From contig JAAYAJ010000007.1 in NCBI GenBank assembly GCA_012719455.1, forward strand, positions 20,502-84,501: a stretch of DNA of 64,000 nucleotides. The letters are read 5' to 3'. Position numbers and translations under genes: made by a program. Below the pieces are notes generated by a model. That model ran no database searches. It was not told where the DNA came from and was given only the letters and a program-made list of their open reading frames with translations. Of this stretch, positions 17,089 to 26,169 are shown one piece after another (position 1 is the first letter of the stretch; every line of letters starts with the position of its first letter). Source of the stretch: Acidobacteriota bacterium (GTDB lineage: Bacteria; Acidobacteriota; UBA6911).

Positions 17089-18096
17089 ATGATGCGGAGG
17101 CTACAGCTGGTCCTGACAATGGTTCTGATTTCAGGATTATCCTGGGCGGCGGCGCAGCCGGCCGCGGCGCCGGCCTCGAAGCCGGCGTGCGACCGCGCTT
17201 GTCTTGAAAGATTCATCGACCGATACTTGGACGCCATGGAAGCGGACAAGCCGTCGCTCGATCTGTTCGCCCGCGACTGCCGCTTTACGGAAAACGGTGT
17301 GCAGCTCCCGCTCGGCGGCGAAGGGCTCTGGGTGAACATGTCGGGGAAGGGGAACTACCGTTTCTACGTTCCGGACATCGAGACGCAGCAGGTGGCCTTC
17401 ATCGGCACCGTGCGCGAGGGCAAGGACTTGGTCGCCGTGGCCGTCCGGCTGAAGATCGTTGCGGAACGTATCACCGAGGCCGAACAGCTGGTGATCCGCC
17501 CGGAGGCGGCCGGCGCGGGCGTGTCGGGGGTTCCCTCTTTTCCCGACACCGGGGAGAGCGTCGAAAAGCTGGGTTCGCCGCACCCGGTCTACCTGGAGGT
17601 GATTCCCGAAGCGGAGCGTCCCTCGCGCGAGGAGATGATCAAGACCGCCAACTACTACTTCACGGGGATGCAGAAGAACGACGGCAAGGGGTACTATCCC
17701 TTCACCGACGATTGCCACCGGATCGAAAACGGGCTGCCCGCTACCAACGCACCGCTCAAGCCGGGGGAGACCCGGCCCGACCCGAAAACGGCCAAGAGCT
17801 ATTCGGCCGCCTGGGGCTGCCGCGAACAGTTCGAGTCGGGGCTGCTCAACTTTGTTTCCCGCATCCGAGACCGCCGATTCGTGGCGGTGGACCGGGAGCG
17901 CGGGATCGTCTTCGCCTTCGGCTTTTTCGACCACCACCACATCAACTGGACCTGGCAGTTGGCCGAGCTGTTCAAGATCGAGAAGGGACAGATCAGGCGC
18001 ATCGAGGCCGTGTTCCACCGCTCCCCCTACGGGATGAACTCGGGGTGGAGCACCTATGAACAGGGGATCTCGGACGCACTGCAGATCGTGTATTGA
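17089..18096 (+). CDS. Secreted SnoaL-like/uncharacterised protein
   Basis: Signal peptide; two alpha+beta-like halves, with FARDCRFTENGVQLPLGGEGLW typical of SnoaL-like ketosteroid-isomerase-fold families. Confidence 0.55.
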   Translation: MMRRLQLVLTMVLISGLSWAAAQPAAAPASKPACDRACLERFIDRYLDAMEADKPSLDLFARDCRFTENGVQLPLGGEGLWVNMSGKGNYRFYVPDIETQQVAFIGTVREGKDLVAVAVRLKIVAERITEAEQLVIRPEAAGAGVSGVPSFPDTGESVEKLGSPHPVYLEVIPEAERPSREEMIKTANYYFTGMQKNDGKGYYPFTDDCHRIENGLPATNAPLKPGETRPDPKTAKSYSAAWGCREQFESGLLNFVSRIRDRRFVAVDRERGIVFAFGFFDHHHINWTWQLAELFKIEKGQIRRIEAVFHRSPYGMNSGWSTYEQGISDALQIVY

Positions 18097-18988: not shown

Positions 18989-20077
18989 TCAGGCAAGCAG
19001 GGTGAGAGCGTCCACGAACGGTCGGCAGTGGGTGAAAAAGCGCCGGTGGCCGGCGCAGAGGGCGTCCGGTCCCGGGCCCCCGCCGGGCGGGCCGATGCGG
19101 TTCTTGGGGCAGCCGCCGCCGCACATGTCAAGCACCGGGCAGCGGCGGCACTCCGTGGGCAGCGTCTCCGTCTTGGCCCGGCCGAAGCGCCGCTGCCGCT
19201 TGCCGCTGATCAGCTCTCCGAGCGGGGTCTCGAGGATGTTCCCCAGCCGGCAATCGGGGCGGACGAAGTGGTCGCAGCTGTAGACGTCGCCGCCCGCATC
19301 GATGACGGGCACGTTACATTCCGGGCGCAGGACGCAAAGGGTGTGTCCGAGCCCGAAGGCCACGCGCGCCGCCTCCTCGAAGAGTTGCACCCGGACGCGG
19401 CCGATGTCTCGCTCGAGCCAGCGGTCGAAGACAACGGAGAGGAACTCCCCCCACTCTTCAGCCTGGACGCTGCGGTCGCTCACCCCGCCTGCCGGCACCG
19501 GCTCCACCAGGGGCAAAAAGGTAAGAGCGCCGAACCCCGCGTCCACAAAAAAATCGTAGACCTCCACGGGAAAACGGGCGTTGCCCGAATGGATGACGGC
19601 CAGGGCCTCGACCGGGACCCCGTGGCGTTTCAGGCGCTCGTGCGCGGCCAAGACCAGGGCGTGGGTGCCGCCGCCGCCGGGAGCGACGCGGAAAAGATCG
19701 TGAAAGCGCGCGGGCCCGTCCAGGCTGAGGCCGACGCGGAACCCTTCGTGGGCCAGGAAGCTGCACCACGCTTCATCCAGGAGCAGGCCGTTGGTCTGGA
19801 TGCCGTTTTGGACCTGCAGGCCCGGGGGACAGTGCTTCCTTTGGAGCGCCACGATCCGGCGGAAGCCGTCCAGGCCGTACAGGGTGGGTTCGCCGCCGTG
19901 CCAGGCAAAGGGGATCACCGGGCCCGGGGCGCAGTCGATCTGCTGCCGGATGGCCGCTTCGAGCACCTCCTCGCGCATCCGGGCGCCGGCGGCGTGGGGG
20001 AGGGCGTAGCAATAGGCGCAATCGAGGTTGCACCAGGTCCCCACCGGCCTGGTAAACACCTGGTATTCCAATGGCAT
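18989..20077 (-). CDS. anSME-like radical SAM/SPASM enzyme
   Basis: CNLDCAYCY radical SAM motif, FAWHGGEPTL, QTNGLLLD, and a SPASM-type Cys-rich C-terminus (CNVPVIDAGGDVYSCDHF, CRRCPVLDMCGGGCPKNR). Confidence 0.85.
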   Translation of the reverse strand: MPLEYQVFTRPVGTWCNLDCAYCYALPHAAGARMREEVLEAAIRQQIDCAPGPVIPFAWHGGEPTLYGLDGFRRIVALQRKHCPPGLQVQNGIQTNGLLLDEAWCSFLAHEGFRVGLSLDGPARFHDLFRVAPGGGGTHALVLAAHERLKRHGVPVEALAVIHSGNARFPVEVYDFFVDAGFGALTFLPLVEPVPAGGVSDRSVQAEEWGEFLSVVFDRWLERDIGRVRVQLFEEAARVAFGLGHTLCVLRPECNVPVIDAGGDVYSCDHFVRPDCRLGNILETPLGELISGKRQRRFGRAKTETLPTECRRCPVLDMCGGGCPKNRIGPPGGGPGPDALCAGHRRFFTHCRPFVDALTLLA

Positions 20078-21051: not shown

Positions 21052-23469
21052 CTAGAGATTGAGCTCGGTGCGCCGGATGATGTCCTCCTGGCTGGCCCGG
21101 TAGAGTTCGACGAAATAGGCGCTGAAGCCCGCGATCCGCACCACCAGGTCGCGGTAGTCTTCCGGCACCTCCTGCGCGCGGCGCAGGGTGTCGGCGCTGA
21201 CGATGTTGAACTGCATCTCCATCCCCCCCAGGTCGAAATAGGTCCGGATCAGGGCGATGAGCTTCTCCTTGCCGCTTTCACTCGCCAGCGCGGTGGGGTG
21301 GAAGCGCATGTTGAGCAACGTTCCGTTCGAGAACTTCTTCTGGTCGATGACCGACACCGACCGGAGCGTGGCCGTCGGTCCCGAGCGGTCCATCTGCTGC
21401 ACGGGCGAGATGCCGTCCGAAAGCGGGGTCCCCGCCTTGCGCCCGTCGGGGGAGGCGGCCGTCGACATGCCGAACAGGACGTGAGCGGTGACGGGGAAGA
21501 GGCCGGCGGCCCAGCGGCCGCGCGGGCCGGTGGCGGCGTTGACCGCGTCGCCGTACACGTCCGTGGCCCAGCGGGCGAAGCAGTCGACGTCGGGGTTGTC
21601 GTTGCCGTAATGGGGCGCCTCGTTGAGGATTCTCTGGCGCAGCTCCTCGTGCCCCTCCCAGTCGGCCATGATGGCGTCGTAGAGCTCCCGGGCGGAGACG
21701 CTCCGCTCTTCGTAGACGAGGTGCTTGACCACGGCCAGGCTGTCGGCGATGTTGCCGATGGCTATGGCGGCGTTGCCGGTGGAGTTGTACCGGGCGCCCC
21801 CCTTCATCACGTCCCGGCCCGATTCCATGCAACCGTCGACGGTGGCTGACAGGAGCGGGAGCTGCATATGTTCCGAGGCGACCATCTCCCAGGTGTTGAC
21901 CAGGCTGATGTGCCAGCCGACGAAGTACTCGATCTGTTGTCGGACCGCGTCGAGAACCTCGTCGAACGTCTCCATCTCGTACAGGTAGCCGGTCGGGAGT
22001 CCCACCCGCCCCCCGCGGCTGCCGTCGGGCGCCGGCATCGGGTTATGCCCGTCGTTGATGGCGAGGAGGAAGGCGTTCAGGAGGTTGAAGAACGATTCGG
22101 TCCCGTTGCCGCCGGGACACGCCCACTCGTCGCCGCATCCCTGCGGCTCCACGCACCCGATCAGGCAGTAGTTGCGCGCGCTCTCGAGCGGGAGCCCGCG
22201 CGCCATGAGGGCGGGGATGATGACGTCGTCGTTTTGGAACGTCGGCACCCCTCCGGCGATGCGCGTCGTCTCGATGGCGGCGTCCCAGAGTTCGGGCGGC
22301 GTCCCCTTGTGGATCCGGAGCGACTGCGGCGGGTCGTGAAGCAGCAAGCGCCCGGAGGACTGCAGCATCATGAAGGTCACCGGGTTGGTCGCGTCCCGGC
22401 CGTCCCGGGTGACCCCTCCGAGCGTCATCAGCTGCCCGCTGGTGTAGCCCGGGCCTGAGAGCGTCGCGAAATAGGGCCAAATTTTGTTCATTTCCGCGAC
22501 CTTAAGATAAAAAAGATCAAGTAATTCTTGAGCTCTTTCGGGCGTGATCCGGCCAGCGGCGAGGTCGGCCTCGTAAAACGGCGCGAGGTACTGGTCCACC
22601 CGCCCGAAACTGATGCCGTGTTGTTGCGCGTCGAGACAGAGGCCGATCTGGTAGAGGAACATGCACTGGATGGCGTCGTGAAACGACCGGCACGGATTGG
22701 CCATGATCCAACCGAGTGAATCGGCCATTTCCAGGAGCTCGGCTTTGCGCGCCGGGTCCGTTTCAAGCGCCGCCTGGCGCGCGCATTCCTCCGCGTAGCG
22801 GCGCGAGAGGATGATCATTCCCTCCGACACGATGGTGACGGCGCGGTAAAAGTTGTAGCGCTCGGCCCCGTTGCCGTACATCCGCCCTTCGAGTTCGCTC
22901 ATCTTCTCTTCCGCTTCGGCCCGGATGGCTCCGAAGCCGCGGTGGAGGGCGGTTTCGAAGTTAGCGACGAAATGGCCGGTCGGCGAGGTGCAGGTGCCCG
23001 TGGTCCCGAAATAAGTCACGCCGCTTCCGGCTGCGCCGAAGTAGCCCAGGGGGATGTATTCGTCCACCTTGGCGCTCAGGCTCTCCTTGCGCCAGTAATC
23101 GCCGGTCTCGAGCAGGTAGCGGGTGTCCTCGTCGGAGATGTCGTAGGGGTCGGTGTCCCGCTTGGGGATGGTGCCGGCGGCCAGTTCGTCGAGAAACCAG
23201 CCGAAGGAGATCTCCGGGTAGAGGGCGCAGGCGCGGTAGCGCGTGGCCTGCCACCCGACAATCACCTCGTTGGGGTTGACGAGCACCGGGAGGCGCTCGC
23301 AAATATTGAGGAAGTTCTTGGCCCGTTTCAGGATCCCCTGCAGCTGCGGGTTTTCACGGTAATAATCGGTGACGATCCGGTAGCGGGCGGTGCAGATGCT
23401 GGGCTTCGCCGTGCGGTATTTTTCACGGATGGCGGCGACGCGGTCGGTGACAGGGCTCAACACGTACAT
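21052..23469 (-). CDS. Glycyl radical enzyme (CxE dehydratase/lyase/decarboxylase type, substrate unassigned)
   Basis: 805 aa; NYCLIGCVEPQ active-site motif; C-terminal LVVRIAGFSAYFVELYRASQEDIIRRTE glycyl radical loop (Gly codon 21127-21129 in plus coordinates). Confidence 0.93.
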   Translation of the reverse strand: MYVLSPVTDRVAAIREKYRTAKPSICTARYRIVTDYYRENPQLQGILKRAKNFLNICERLPVLVNPNEVIVGWQATRYRACALYPEISFGWFLDELAAGTIPKRDTDPYDISDEDTRYLLETGDYWRKESLSAKVDEYIPLGYFGAAGSGVTYFGTTGTCTSPTGHFVANFETALHRGFGAIRAEAEEKMSELEGRMYGNGAERYNFYRAVTIVSEGMIILSRRYAEECARQAALETDPARKAELLEMADSLGWIMANPCRSFHDAIQCMFLYQIGLCLDAQQHGISFGRVDQYLAPFYEADLAAGRITPERAQELLDLFYLKVAEMNKIWPYFATLSGPGYTSGQLMTLGGVTRDGRDATNPVTFMMLQSSGRLLLHDPPQSLRIHKGTPPELWDAAIETTRIAGGVPTFQNDDVIIPALMARGLPLESARNYCLIGCVEPQGCGDEWACPGGNGTESFFNLLNAFLLAINDGHNPMPAPDGSRGGRVGLPTGYLYEMETFDEVLDAVRQQIEYFVGWHISLVNTWEMVASEHMQLPLLSATVDGCMESGRDVMKGGARYNSTGNAAIAIGNIADSLAVVKHLVYEERSVSARELYDAIMADWEGHEELRQRILNEAPHYGNDNPDVDCFARWATDVYGDAVNAATGPRGRWAAGLFPVTAHVLFGMSTAASPDGRKAGTPLSDGISPVQQMDRSGPTATLRSVSVIDQKKFSNGTLLNMRFHPTALASESGKEKLIALIRTYFDLGGMEMQFNIVSADTLRRAQEVPEDYRDLVVRIAGFSAYFVELYRASQEDIIRRTELNL

Positions 23470-23694
23470 AATATTCCTCCCGGGGCTTGAGGGCCTAAAA
23501 TGTCATTCTACCGGGAAACACCCCCGTCCGACAATGAATTAACCCGGGGCAGGGTGGAAGCGACGCTATGCGCCCGGCCTGAACTGCTGGTGCAATCAGG
23601 CTGAGGGGTCGAAGATACGACCAGGTGCTCTCGCGGGATCGTCCGCAGGGAAAACGCCCCGCGTCATGGAAAATCCGCGGCAATCGCGGCGTTT

Positions 23695-26169
23695 TTAAAT
23701 CTTCCCAAGGGCTTTCAATGCCCGCATCGGAGTCAGCGGATAATCCAGCGCCCATTTGCCGGTGGCGTTGAAGAACGCTCCGGCCGTGATTCCGGACATG
23801 GATGCCGCGGACGCTTCGCCGATGCCGCAGGCGCCGTACGATGAATATCCGAGGTGGCTCTCATTGAGGAAGCATTTCACTTCCGGGTAATCATTCATCG
23901 TGCCGATGTGGTAGCCGATGTTGTCGAAGTTCAGGCCGACGCCGGTTTTCGGGCAGTAGACCTTTTCTTCCGTAGCGCTTCTTCCCAAGCCCATGATCGC
24001 GCCACCGTACTGCTGGGCTTCCGCGCCGCGGCGGTTGAAGAGATGACCGACATCGTTGACGCAGACCACGTTCGTGACCGTTATTTCTCCGGTCTCGGTG
24101 TCGACTTCAACTTCGATGAAATGAGCCTGCCGGCTCATGACGTACATATTGGGATGCGGTTTGCCGTTCAGCGTCAACCCACTGATATTCGGGGCCGTGG
24201 GATGGATGATCGCGGGATCCTGGCCCCAGAATGCCCCGGCAACCTCCTTTACACTTTTCCTGTTGGAGGGATCGGCTTTTTCGAAAACAAATCCATCGCG
24301 GACATCCAGTTCTTCTATTGTCTTGCCGGGGAACATGGGCTGTGGTGTCCCCATTGTCCGCATCATCATGCCCATCGGGCGAGGCTTCACGGCATAGCTG
24401 AGGATTTTGTCTTTAAGCTGCCGTGCGGCGAGAATCAGTTGCGGAGTGCTCTGGCAGATTCCCATGGCGCCGCCCGGGACCCAGAAATGGTACGCGCCGG
24501 CATCGGAGCGCTGCACGTGGACCACGGTATCCTCATAGCGCAGCCCGGCTTCCGCGGCGACCGCTTTGCGGAAGGAGGATTCCGTGTCCATGCCGAAATC
24601 GGCCCGCTCCCCGATGATGTGAACCTGGCCTTCGCGCAAAATCAGGCAGCCGAACTGCCGGCCGGGCATCCATCCCCATTCATTGATGTGAACGAAACCC
24701 AATCCATGCATTCTGCCATTCGGCAGTTTGAGCGCTCCCGGGGCATGCCATTTGTTATCCCAGTCGATCGCCTTTTTGCCCAGTTCGAGCACTTCTTTCA
24801 AGCTGTGCCGTTGCGGGAAGCCATTCTCCTTCTGGTAGGCCGTGACCCAGTCCCAGTCGTGTCCCCTGCATCCGTCGTTCTTCAGGGCGACTTCCGTCGG
24901 ATCCAGGCCAAGTTCGGCTGCGACTTTATCGAACATCACGTTGTGCGGCACGCAGCTATGTGCGCCGTGCCTGAAGCAGATGTGATGTCCCGTATTGATC
25001 AAGGCCCACTCCTGCGTGTTCCGTATGTTGGCGATGGAGGTGGACTCGTACGTTTTGTCTACGTGCAATTCTCCGAATGGACCAATCACGTGCCAGTCGC
25101 AGGCCGTGATCGTGCCGTCTTTTTTTGCGCCGATTTTACATCTATAAACCGCCGTGTCGTCGCCGTTCGCGTAAAAATTGCTTTCGTCGAACAGCACTTT
25201 TACCGGCCGGTCCTTGACTCTCCGGGCCAGGATCGCCGCCATGCGTATGAAGGCCGCCGAGTATGCCAGCCAGGCGAAGCCACCGTACCAGGCGCCCTGA
25301 AAGGGTCTGGTCACCGTGATCTTGTTGTATTCGCAGATCGGCGGGATCGGCTGCGTTCTGTCCGTGGGCGGCACTTTCGCCTCGAGAGTCGAAGGGGACA
25401 TGCCGAGCGCGAGGTTGTTCAAAGAGATCGAAGGAGCGATGGCGCTGGCCAGGATCGGCTGCATATGACACGTGTGGTGCGGCCAGATATCGAGACAGTC
25501 GCCCCTCCACTGCACGACGCAAGCCATGGCTTCAACACCGGCGACGGTGTTGGTGGCCCGTGTCATCGTGTACTCCATGATTTTATCCGCTTCGGCGAAG
25601 CCTTTCTGAACGTTCCCGATTTCGGTCGTCCGCGTCACGACGGTGTTAGGCGGTGTTGCCTTCTCATTCAGGCGCAGGACTTCGGGCATAATCGCGGGGG
25701 CGGTCGGTTTCAGCGATTCTTCCATGTCCAGAATAAAAGGCAGTTCTTCCCATTTGATCTCAATCAGCCGGAGCGCCCGGTCACACAGCTCCTCGCTGTC
25801 GGCGACCACGGCAACGCCCATGGGGTGCTGATAAAAATCGCTGGTCTTGGGGAGCGTGAGGATATTGTACTGGCTCGCGCAGTAGCCCCCTGTGGCATTT
25901 TCGAGAGCGATGTCGGGGTCGTCAAATCGCAGGATGTCACGGACTCCCGTAAGCTTTTCCGCCTTGCTCGTGTCCATGCCTACGATTCTGGCGTGGGAAT
26001 AGGGGGAAGTCAGGACCTTGGCGTACAGCATGCCGGGAAGGTGCAGGTCCCTTGTGTACATTGCCTGGCCGGACACCTTGTCATGGCCGTCATGTTTCGG
26101 CGAGCTGTATTCGACCGGTGTAAAACCCTCGGGGATTCTCCATGTCCAGGGCCTGTAATCTTCCGCCAT
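23695..26169 (-). CDS. Xanthine dehydrogenase-family molybdopterin-binding subunit (divergent)
   Basis: 824 aa; KVSGQAMYTRDLHLPGMLYAKVLTSPYSHARI; GACGIGEASAASM retains the catalytic Glu motif; FGGK-type motif replaced by FQGAWYGGFAW. Confidence 0.85.
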   Translation of the reverse strand: MAEDYRPWTWRIPEGFTPVEYSSPKHDGHDKVSGQAMYTRDLHLPGMLYAKVLTSPYSHARIVGMDTSKAEKLTGVRDILRFDDPDIALENATGGYCASQYNILTLPKTSDFYQHPMGVAVVADSEELCDRALRLIEIKWEELPFILDMEESLKPTAPAIMPEVLRLNEKATPPNTVVTRTTEIGNVQKGFAEADKIMEYTMTRATNTVAGVEAMACVVQWRGDCLDIWPHHTCHMQPILASAIAPSISLNNLALGMSPSTLEAKVPPTDRTQPIPPICEYNKITVTRPFQGAWYGGFAWLAYSAAFIRMAAILARRVKDRPVKVLFDESNFYANGDDTAVYRCKIGAKKDGTITACDWHVIGPFGELHVDKTYESTSIANIRNTQEWALINTGHHICFRHGAHSCVPHNVMFDKVAAELGLDPTEVALKNDGCRGHDWDWVTAYQKENGFPQRHSLKEVLELGKKAIDWDNKWHAPGALKLPNGRMHGLGFVHINEWGWMPGRQFGCLILREGQVHIIGERADFGMDTESSFRKAVAAEAGLRYEDTVVHVQRSDAGAYHFWVPGGAMGICQSTPQLILAARQLKDKILSYAVKPRPMGMMMRTMGTPQPMFPGKTIEELDVRDGFVFEKADPSNRKSVKEVAGAFWGQDPAIIHPTAPNISGLTLNGKPHPNMYVMSRQAHFIEVEVDTETGEITVTNVVCVNDVGHLFNRRGAEAQQYGGAIMGLGRSATEEKVYCPKTGVGLNFDNIGYHIGTMNDYPEVKCFLNESHLGYSSYGACGIGEASAASMSGITAGAFFNATGKWALDYPLTPMRALKALGKI

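Follow-up and report, generated by a model that had tools for sequence, protein, structure and literature searches.

What reaction does the glycyl radical enzyme (GRE) encoded in this DNA catalyze? The enzyme, designated P0001, lies in a stretch of 64,000 nucleotides from an Acidobacteriota bacterium, which was analyzed as a whole and is called the window here. A sequence-only reading had described P0001 as a GRE of the dehydratase/lyase/decarboxylase branch with an unassigned substrate, and this held in every test that was run, by HMM score, by identity and in the tree. The open reading frame occupies exactly the coordinates claimed for it (Table 1). Its strand was overlooked in that reading, as were the activase gene, which begins 3 bp downstream, and two further GREs of the genome, paralogues of P0001. 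Read on the plus strand, the same interval contains stops and is not an open frame. The open reading frame is far beyond chance, because it matches PF02901 (PFL-like) with an E-value of 7.8e-175 and PF01228 (Gly_radical) with an E-value of 1.6e-32. Both the PFL-like domain and a C-terminal loop of the RxxGYxxxF-like kind, which mark the GRE superfamily, are present. The AlphaFold model has a pLDDT of 90.7 and a pTM of 0.91. P0001, an oxygen-sensitive radical enzyme from an anaerobe, is real and intact, and it represents a GRE subfamily for which no characterized member was found here. Judged from sequence and predicted structure, it is a GRE by its fold, its glycyl radical loop, its CXE loop, its activase partner and its clade.

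Table 1. Features at and around the P0001 gene, in positions of the window (GD, glycerol dehydratase)
Feature	Position	Strand	Evidence
Protein without Pfam match	17089..18096	plus	
Radical SAM/SPASM protein	18989..20077	minus	353.3 vs cut-off 349.45 for anaerobic sulfatase maturase (NCBIfam)
GRE activating enzyme, radical SAM, 318 aa	20092..21048	minus	TIGR02494, 321.7 bits, cut-off 174
Glycyl radical enzyme P0001, 805 aa	21052..23469	minus	PF02901 + PF01228
RIAGFSAYF glycyl radical loop, G781	21112..21138	minus	aligns with GD G763
Cys loop C439-V-E441...E448-W449...GGxG...N462	22084..22155	minus	NYCLIGCVEPQGCGDEWACPGGNGTESFF holds C439 and E441
PGYTSGQ segment with G345; G339 just ahead	22432..22452	minus	alignment
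DAQQHGISFGRVD segment, H284 at GD His281, G285 at GD Ser282	22594..22632	minus	alignment
TSPTGHFVANFE segment, H166 at GD His164	22954..22989	minus	alignment
Shine-Dalgarno-like GGAGGA, ahead of the P0001 ATG at 23469	23475..23480	minus	read directly
Xanthine dehydrogenase/aldehyde oxidase-family Mo-binding subunit	23695..26169	minus	PF01315, PF02738, PF20256

The bit scores of P0001 were set against the cut-off of each NCBIfam equivalog model for GREs, and all are about half of the cut-off or less. They are 528 against 1050 for CutC (TIGR04394), 494 against 1100 for HypD (NF043068), 499 and 561 against 1000 each for HpsG (NF048011) and HpfG (NF048009), 371 against 1100 and 311 against 1150 for the arylacetate decarboxylases IAD (NF033718) and HPAD (NF033715), and 116 against 994 for pyruvate formate-lyase (TIGR01255). 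Over the aligned parts, P0001 is 37% identical to GD, 1,2-propanediol dehydratase (PD) and 9rco, 34% to HypD, 31% to CutC, and 30% to IslA. These references of solved GREs were lifted from phmmer alignments, in which HypD and CutC are partial. An identity of ~60% served to separate GREs of different activity (PMC6453916). The statement that P0001 matches no characterized class is consistent with these values, as the equivalog scores are far below the cut-offs and the identity to solved GREs does not exceed 37%. A high-identity cluster of known substrate was looked for, and the best solved GRE remained at 37%.

Foldseek with the P0001 model placed 1,2-propanediol dehydratase (9rco) and glycerol dehydratase on top (TM 0.94, 35-36% identity). 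In a quick ML tree, which has no bootstrap and in which the long branches of CutC, IslA and the third GRE of the genome (L003) are untrustworthy for finer placement, P0001 falls into a 35-row clade with an SH-aLRT of 100. This clade is apart from CutC, IslA and HypD, and also from GD, PD and 9rco, which form one group (SH-aLRT 100). The structural modelling and comparisons that had been recommended were run for PD/GD, CutC, HypD and IslA, and P0001 lies outside all four branches in the tree; for HPAD, non-membership is indicated by the HMM score alone.

The active site is a mixture of residues kept and residues altered relative to GD. The Cys-x-Glu quoted in NYCLIGCVEPQGCGDEWACPGGNGTESFF is C439-V440-E441, and C439 and E441 are conserved in 34 of 34 clade members in the alignment. 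The loop reads GCVE and has no adjacent Cys pair, which rules out the PFL-type CC, as had been claimed. The TSPTGHFVANFE segment is likewise present and carries the equivalent of GD His164. In GD numbering, P0001 keeps C433 (C439), E435 (E441), H164 (H166), H281 (H284) and G763 (G781), and alters S282 to G285, F333 to G339, Y339 to G345, and D447 to T457. Of the PD/GD signature, His164 and His281 are found, and Asp447 and Ser282 are not. The residue at the T457 position varies inside the clade and is not acidic. The H166 position is His in all 34 clade members and in GD, PD and 9rco, Asp in CutC, and Gln in IslA. The glycyl radical Gly is present in every clade member reaching the C-terminus. 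The Cys loop is four residues longer than that of GD and contains a new pair, E/D448 and W/Y/F449, in 34 of 34 members; this longer loop with (E/D)(W/Y/F) is diagnostic of the P0001 clade. The replacement of GD Phe333 and Tyr339 by G339 and G345 suggests, from the alignment, an enlarged pocket.

Two main types are observed in the clade, together with a few intermediates. The P0001-type has CVE, H284 and G345, and the CQE-type has C-Q-E, no H284, and Tyr at 345. H284 is conserved in all P0001-type members (20/20), where the CQE sister type has P/G instead. G345 is shared by the 20 P0001-type and the five intermediate-type members, all solved references being aromatic there. No characterized member of the clade was found in the open-licence papers searched; one may have been described elsewhere. 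The orthologues of P0001, with 56-92% identity, are from Acidobacteriota, 'Deltaproteobacteria'-labelled MAGs, a spirochaete, acetogens and Oscillospiraceae. The named relatives of the window are Acidobacteria MAGs, and the named carriers among acetogens/Bacillota are Acetobacterium paludosum, Acetobacterium tundrae and Sporomusa acidovorans. Close matches (E<=1e-250) are found in 53 of 301 genomes of the family Oscillospiraceae. Carriers can have many GREs: G153 shows 16 matches, and G159 shows 12. GRE expansions are seen in these Oscillospiraceae genomes, in G394 and in others, with 16 matches in 2.4 Mb and up to 32 first-look candidates in 2.0 Mb. The orthologue in one relative (G009:C258, L038) is broken by an in-frame TAA, which is either an assembly error or a sign of a pseudogene. 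A separate GRE at L035:660-3218 has GCLGYH at the place of GCxE; an activase comes after it, and then a protein similar to methylaspartate mutase E (PF06368).

The window genome (G000; 2.79 Mb, 97% complete) contains three GREs, and only two GRE activases were found in it. One is the activase beside P0001, whose TIGR02494 score above the cut-off identifies it as the cognate radical-SAM activase expected in the GRE superfamily. An activase neighbours the GRE in 21 of the 27 listed orthologue rows. The other adjoins the third GRE (C4:60521-62905; L003/L051), whose unusual Cys loop, GCVYPCLPSR, has Cys-Val-Tyr in place of Cys-x-Glu. The remaining GRE is a CQE-type paralogue, which is alone on contig C103 (L071:6996-9812). 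Because no activase adjoins it, it is suggested that this paralogue shares the activase of the window.

The gene for the Mo-binding subunit is located 225 bp upstream of P0001 on the same strand. It is a possible partner of P0001, the linkage not being conserved: it is missing next to the L033 orthologue, which is 92% identical to P0001. There is no iron-sulfur subunit beside it, and its identity to the Mo-AORs encoded near sister GREs is only 27%, over a stretch of 165 aa. The sulfatase-maturase-like gene, 14 bp past the activase, was not seen beside the L033 orthologue either. A functional tie of these two genes to the GRE was considered and kept out of the main evidence because their linkage is not conserved in near relatives. 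The protein without a Pfam match is 38% identical to L036:184-1266, and the two are near a GRE in two Acidobacteriota genomes.

The gene neighbourhoods of orthologues were compared on gene calls from a home-made program based on codon usage, which may overlook small genes. Conservation in Acidobacteriota is confined to the GRE and its activase, with no conserved pathway neighbour. L116 shows, on one strand, GRE, activase, MFS, CoA-ALDH, PTB, BUK and FeADH, adjoined by a CQE-type GRE and a GPH symporter. ALDH-PTB-BUK adjoins the GRE in L108, and L074 consists of a tungsten AOR, a 69-aa protein ending in GG, the activase and the GRE. The ALDH of L052 has its closest match in 5jfl, an aldehyde dehydrogenase of the CoA-acylating type presumably in a PduP role, and the kinase there is closest to butyrate kinase 2. 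CQE-type GREs adjoin P0001-type GREs in Acetobacterium and in several Oscillospiraceae loci; the order is CQE GRE, Fe-ADH, P0001-type GRE and activase in L045/L046, and GRE, activase, CQE GRE and TRAP-type permease in L085/L090. DeoC, FGGY kinase, Fe-ADH and HAD phosphatase are convergent with the GRE in L072. Xylulokinase-like and fructokinase-like genes, as well as a distant fucose-isomerase-like gene, are beside the GRE in L058. Butyrate-type genes (ETF, acyl-CoA dehydrogenase, CoA-transferase) are convergent with the GRE in L043 and may be coincidental. Some of the context genes in these three loci are convergent or divergent and do not form one operon with the GRE. The sister-type clusters L075/L076 contain a GPH symporter, 3HCDH, CoA-transferase, FabG-like SDR and CQE GRE, and L075 additionally thiolase, an AraC regulator and an AOR that is 84% identical to that of L074. 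The Mo protein of L073 scores 1332 bits as molybdopterin aldehyde oxidoreductase (NCBIfam cut-off 1100) and has homologues in L063, L061 and L069 (54-78% identity). A purine/N-heterocycle pathway, considered in view of Mo-hydroxylases near sister GREs, was set aside because the Mo protein is above this cut-off. An aldehyde-enzyme neighbour (Fe-ADH, CoA-ALDH, AOR or Mo-AOR) is found in about 9 of 57 P0001-type loci, a raw count without a background rate. Such contexts probably narrow the product of P0001 to an aldehyde.

A microcompartment pathway was rejected. The absence of microcompartment genes, claimed for the window, extends to the whole genome: PF00936 has no match in G000 or in the seven congeners searched. 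In total, 14 of the 16 carrier genomes searched, G000 included, are without microcompartment genes; Acetobacterium and Sporomusa have them on contigs other than those of the orthologues. G000 contains eight AOR genes, and the PduP-type ALDH of L052, used as a query, has no match in it. For these two reasons, AOR is likely to be the next enzyme after P0001 in the Acidobacteriota host. In the congeners, the number of genes of the aldehyde ferredoxin oxidoreductase family ranges from 8 to 25 per genome.

It is likely that P0001 is an aldehyde-producing eliminase. That the genes of P0001 and of its activase make up a two-gene unit for a glycyl radical polyol-type dehydratase with an aldehyde product and a substrate probably larger than glycerol is a proposal with about even chances. 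The larger substrate is suggested because the aromatic wall of PD/GD is lost from the pocket; taken separately, a polyol larger than glycerol as the substrate falls somewhat short of an even chance, an example being a C4-C6 sugar alcohol. The absence of GD Asp447 speaks against the polyol dehydratase reading. The activase would generate a radical on G781, which would be handed to C439, and the thiyl radical would abstract hydrogen from a vicinal diol or polyol, at a carbon that bears a hydroxyl. The CXE Glu of other eliminases deprotonates the hydroxyl destined to be the aldehyde (PMC7077986), and from this role we infer that E441 would deprotonate the hydroxyl on the same carbon. The neighbouring hydroxyl would depart, aided by H166 and probably by the acidic E448, which presumably stands in for GD Asp447. 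The product radical would regain hydrogen from C439, resulting in a 2-deoxy aldehyde. The aldehyde would be oxidized, in Acidobacteriota probably by tungsten AORs and in Bacillota by AOR, Mo-AOR or CoA-acylating ALDH, or alternatively reduced by Fe-ADH. Since the GRE-activase pair in Acidobacteriota has no conserved pathway neighbour, we infer the function there from the Bacillota orthologues (~55-65% identity).

Deoxyribose is acted on by a Mo-dependent dehydrogenase and SDR in Pseudomonas, and beta-hydroxyacyl-CoA dehydrogenase, thiolase and CoA-transferase are at work in Klebsiella (PMC6365646). Because the L075/L076 genes resemble deoxyribonate breakdown (PMC6365646), they suggest, by analogy, that the sister type serves a route in which a polyol becomes a 2-deoxyaldose and then a 3-hydroxy acid, and it is hypothesized that this route could be carried over to P0001. 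A wider scheme is rather doubtful. There, the clade would provide a radical route from sugar alcohols (e.g. pentitols) to 2-deoxyaldoses, which W/Mo-AOR would convert to 3-hydroxy (2-deoxyaldonic) acids for beta-oxidation-like thiolysis, or which DeoC would cleave; the P0001- and CQE-types would be paired on different substrates or steps and share one activase.

It is unlikely that P0001 is simply a 1,2-propanediol or glycerol dehydratase that works without a microcompartment and has a separate evolutionary origin. These enzymes have the closest fold, the L116 operon follows the ALDH-phosphotransacylase-kinase-ADH logic of diol dismutation, and the distant fucose-isomerase-like gene and sugar kinases of L058 would fit. 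However, GD/PD D447, S282, F333 and Y339 are all replaced, the GPH or TRAP transporters near some orthologues fit larger polar substrates, and the context kinase is butyrate-kinase-like. A lyase that releases a non-hydroxyl group, such as an ether or amine, and yields an aldehyde as CutC does is quite unlikely. An aldehyde product would still be expected from it, CutC is among the better HMM and PDB matches of P0001, and the GD Asp447 position is non-acidic in the clade as in CutC; the CutC Asp216 position, however, is occupied by His, the residue of diol dehydratases, Thr457 varies among orthologues, and the neighbouring sugar-type kinases, GPH symporter, DeoC and 3HCDH/thiolase point to polyols. 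Cleavage of ethers (PEG, phenoxyethanol, lignin aryl ether) was considered since acetogens carry orthologues, and the sugar-type context fits it less well; no link between P0001-like GREs and ether cleavage was found in open-licence papers.

HypD shows that a CXE enzyme can work in reversed orientation (PMC7077986), and HypD-like proteins are numerous among the GRE relatives from other Acidobacteriota families. It is nevertheless improbable that the leaving hydroxyl faces the CXE Glu in P0001, with a product other than an aldehyde, given the separate clade, the His at the HypD Asp278 position, the low equivalog score and the aldehyde enzymes adjoining orthologues. A decarboxylase or a C-C bond forming GRE of the HPAD, IAD or XSS type shares the superfamily, and HPAD shares the CXE Glu; it is highly improbable in view of the IAD and HPAD scores, the lower TM, the 25-27% identity to XSS, and the absence of small subunits nearby.

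The P0001 clade is common in the Oscillospiraceae genomes mentioned above, carriers are often rich in GRE genes, and many abundant gut GREs are without known function (PMC11574389). With the active-site signature and the pathway operons (L116, L074, L075/L076), the question of the substrate can be addressed in Acetobacterium cultures. If the polyol reading is true, the clade would give anaerobes a widespread way of bringing sugar alcohols into metabolism without B12 or a microcompartment.

Among the known systems, IslA/IseG and HpsG/HpfG share the eliminase fold and CXE loop with P0001. The sulfonate-binding residues of IslA are replaced in P0001 (R189 by S162, Q193 by H166, and R678 by G656), and the HpsG and HpfG scores are about half of the cut-off; a sulfonate lyase or DHPS dehydratase was rejected, in agreement with the earlier remark that no sulfonate genes are visible. 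CutC resembles P0001 in the CXE loop, a GxSxGRVDQY-like strand and the lack of Asp at the GD Asp447 position, and differs in Asp216 (H166), score and identity, by which CutC identity was rejected. HypD has the eliminase fold and CXE loop in common with P0001; Asp278 aligned with H284 and the score led to its rejection. The anhydrohexitol-phosphate dehydratases YbiW/PflD are GRE dehydratases taking sugar-alcohol-like substrates, similar to the role proposed for P0001, but show ~29-32% identity and no comparable gene context. PD/GD (9rco, 5i2g; 1r8w) share with P0001 the fold, the CXE loop, the two His equivalents and an activase partner, and with its Bacillota orthologues a similar ALDH/kinase/ADH context. 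They differ in the 37% identity, the four residues lost in P0001, the longer Cys loop with its invariant (E/D)(W/Y/F), and the microcompartment lacking in the window genome. The P0001 clade is a variant within the known GRE eliminases, not a separate kind of enzyme.
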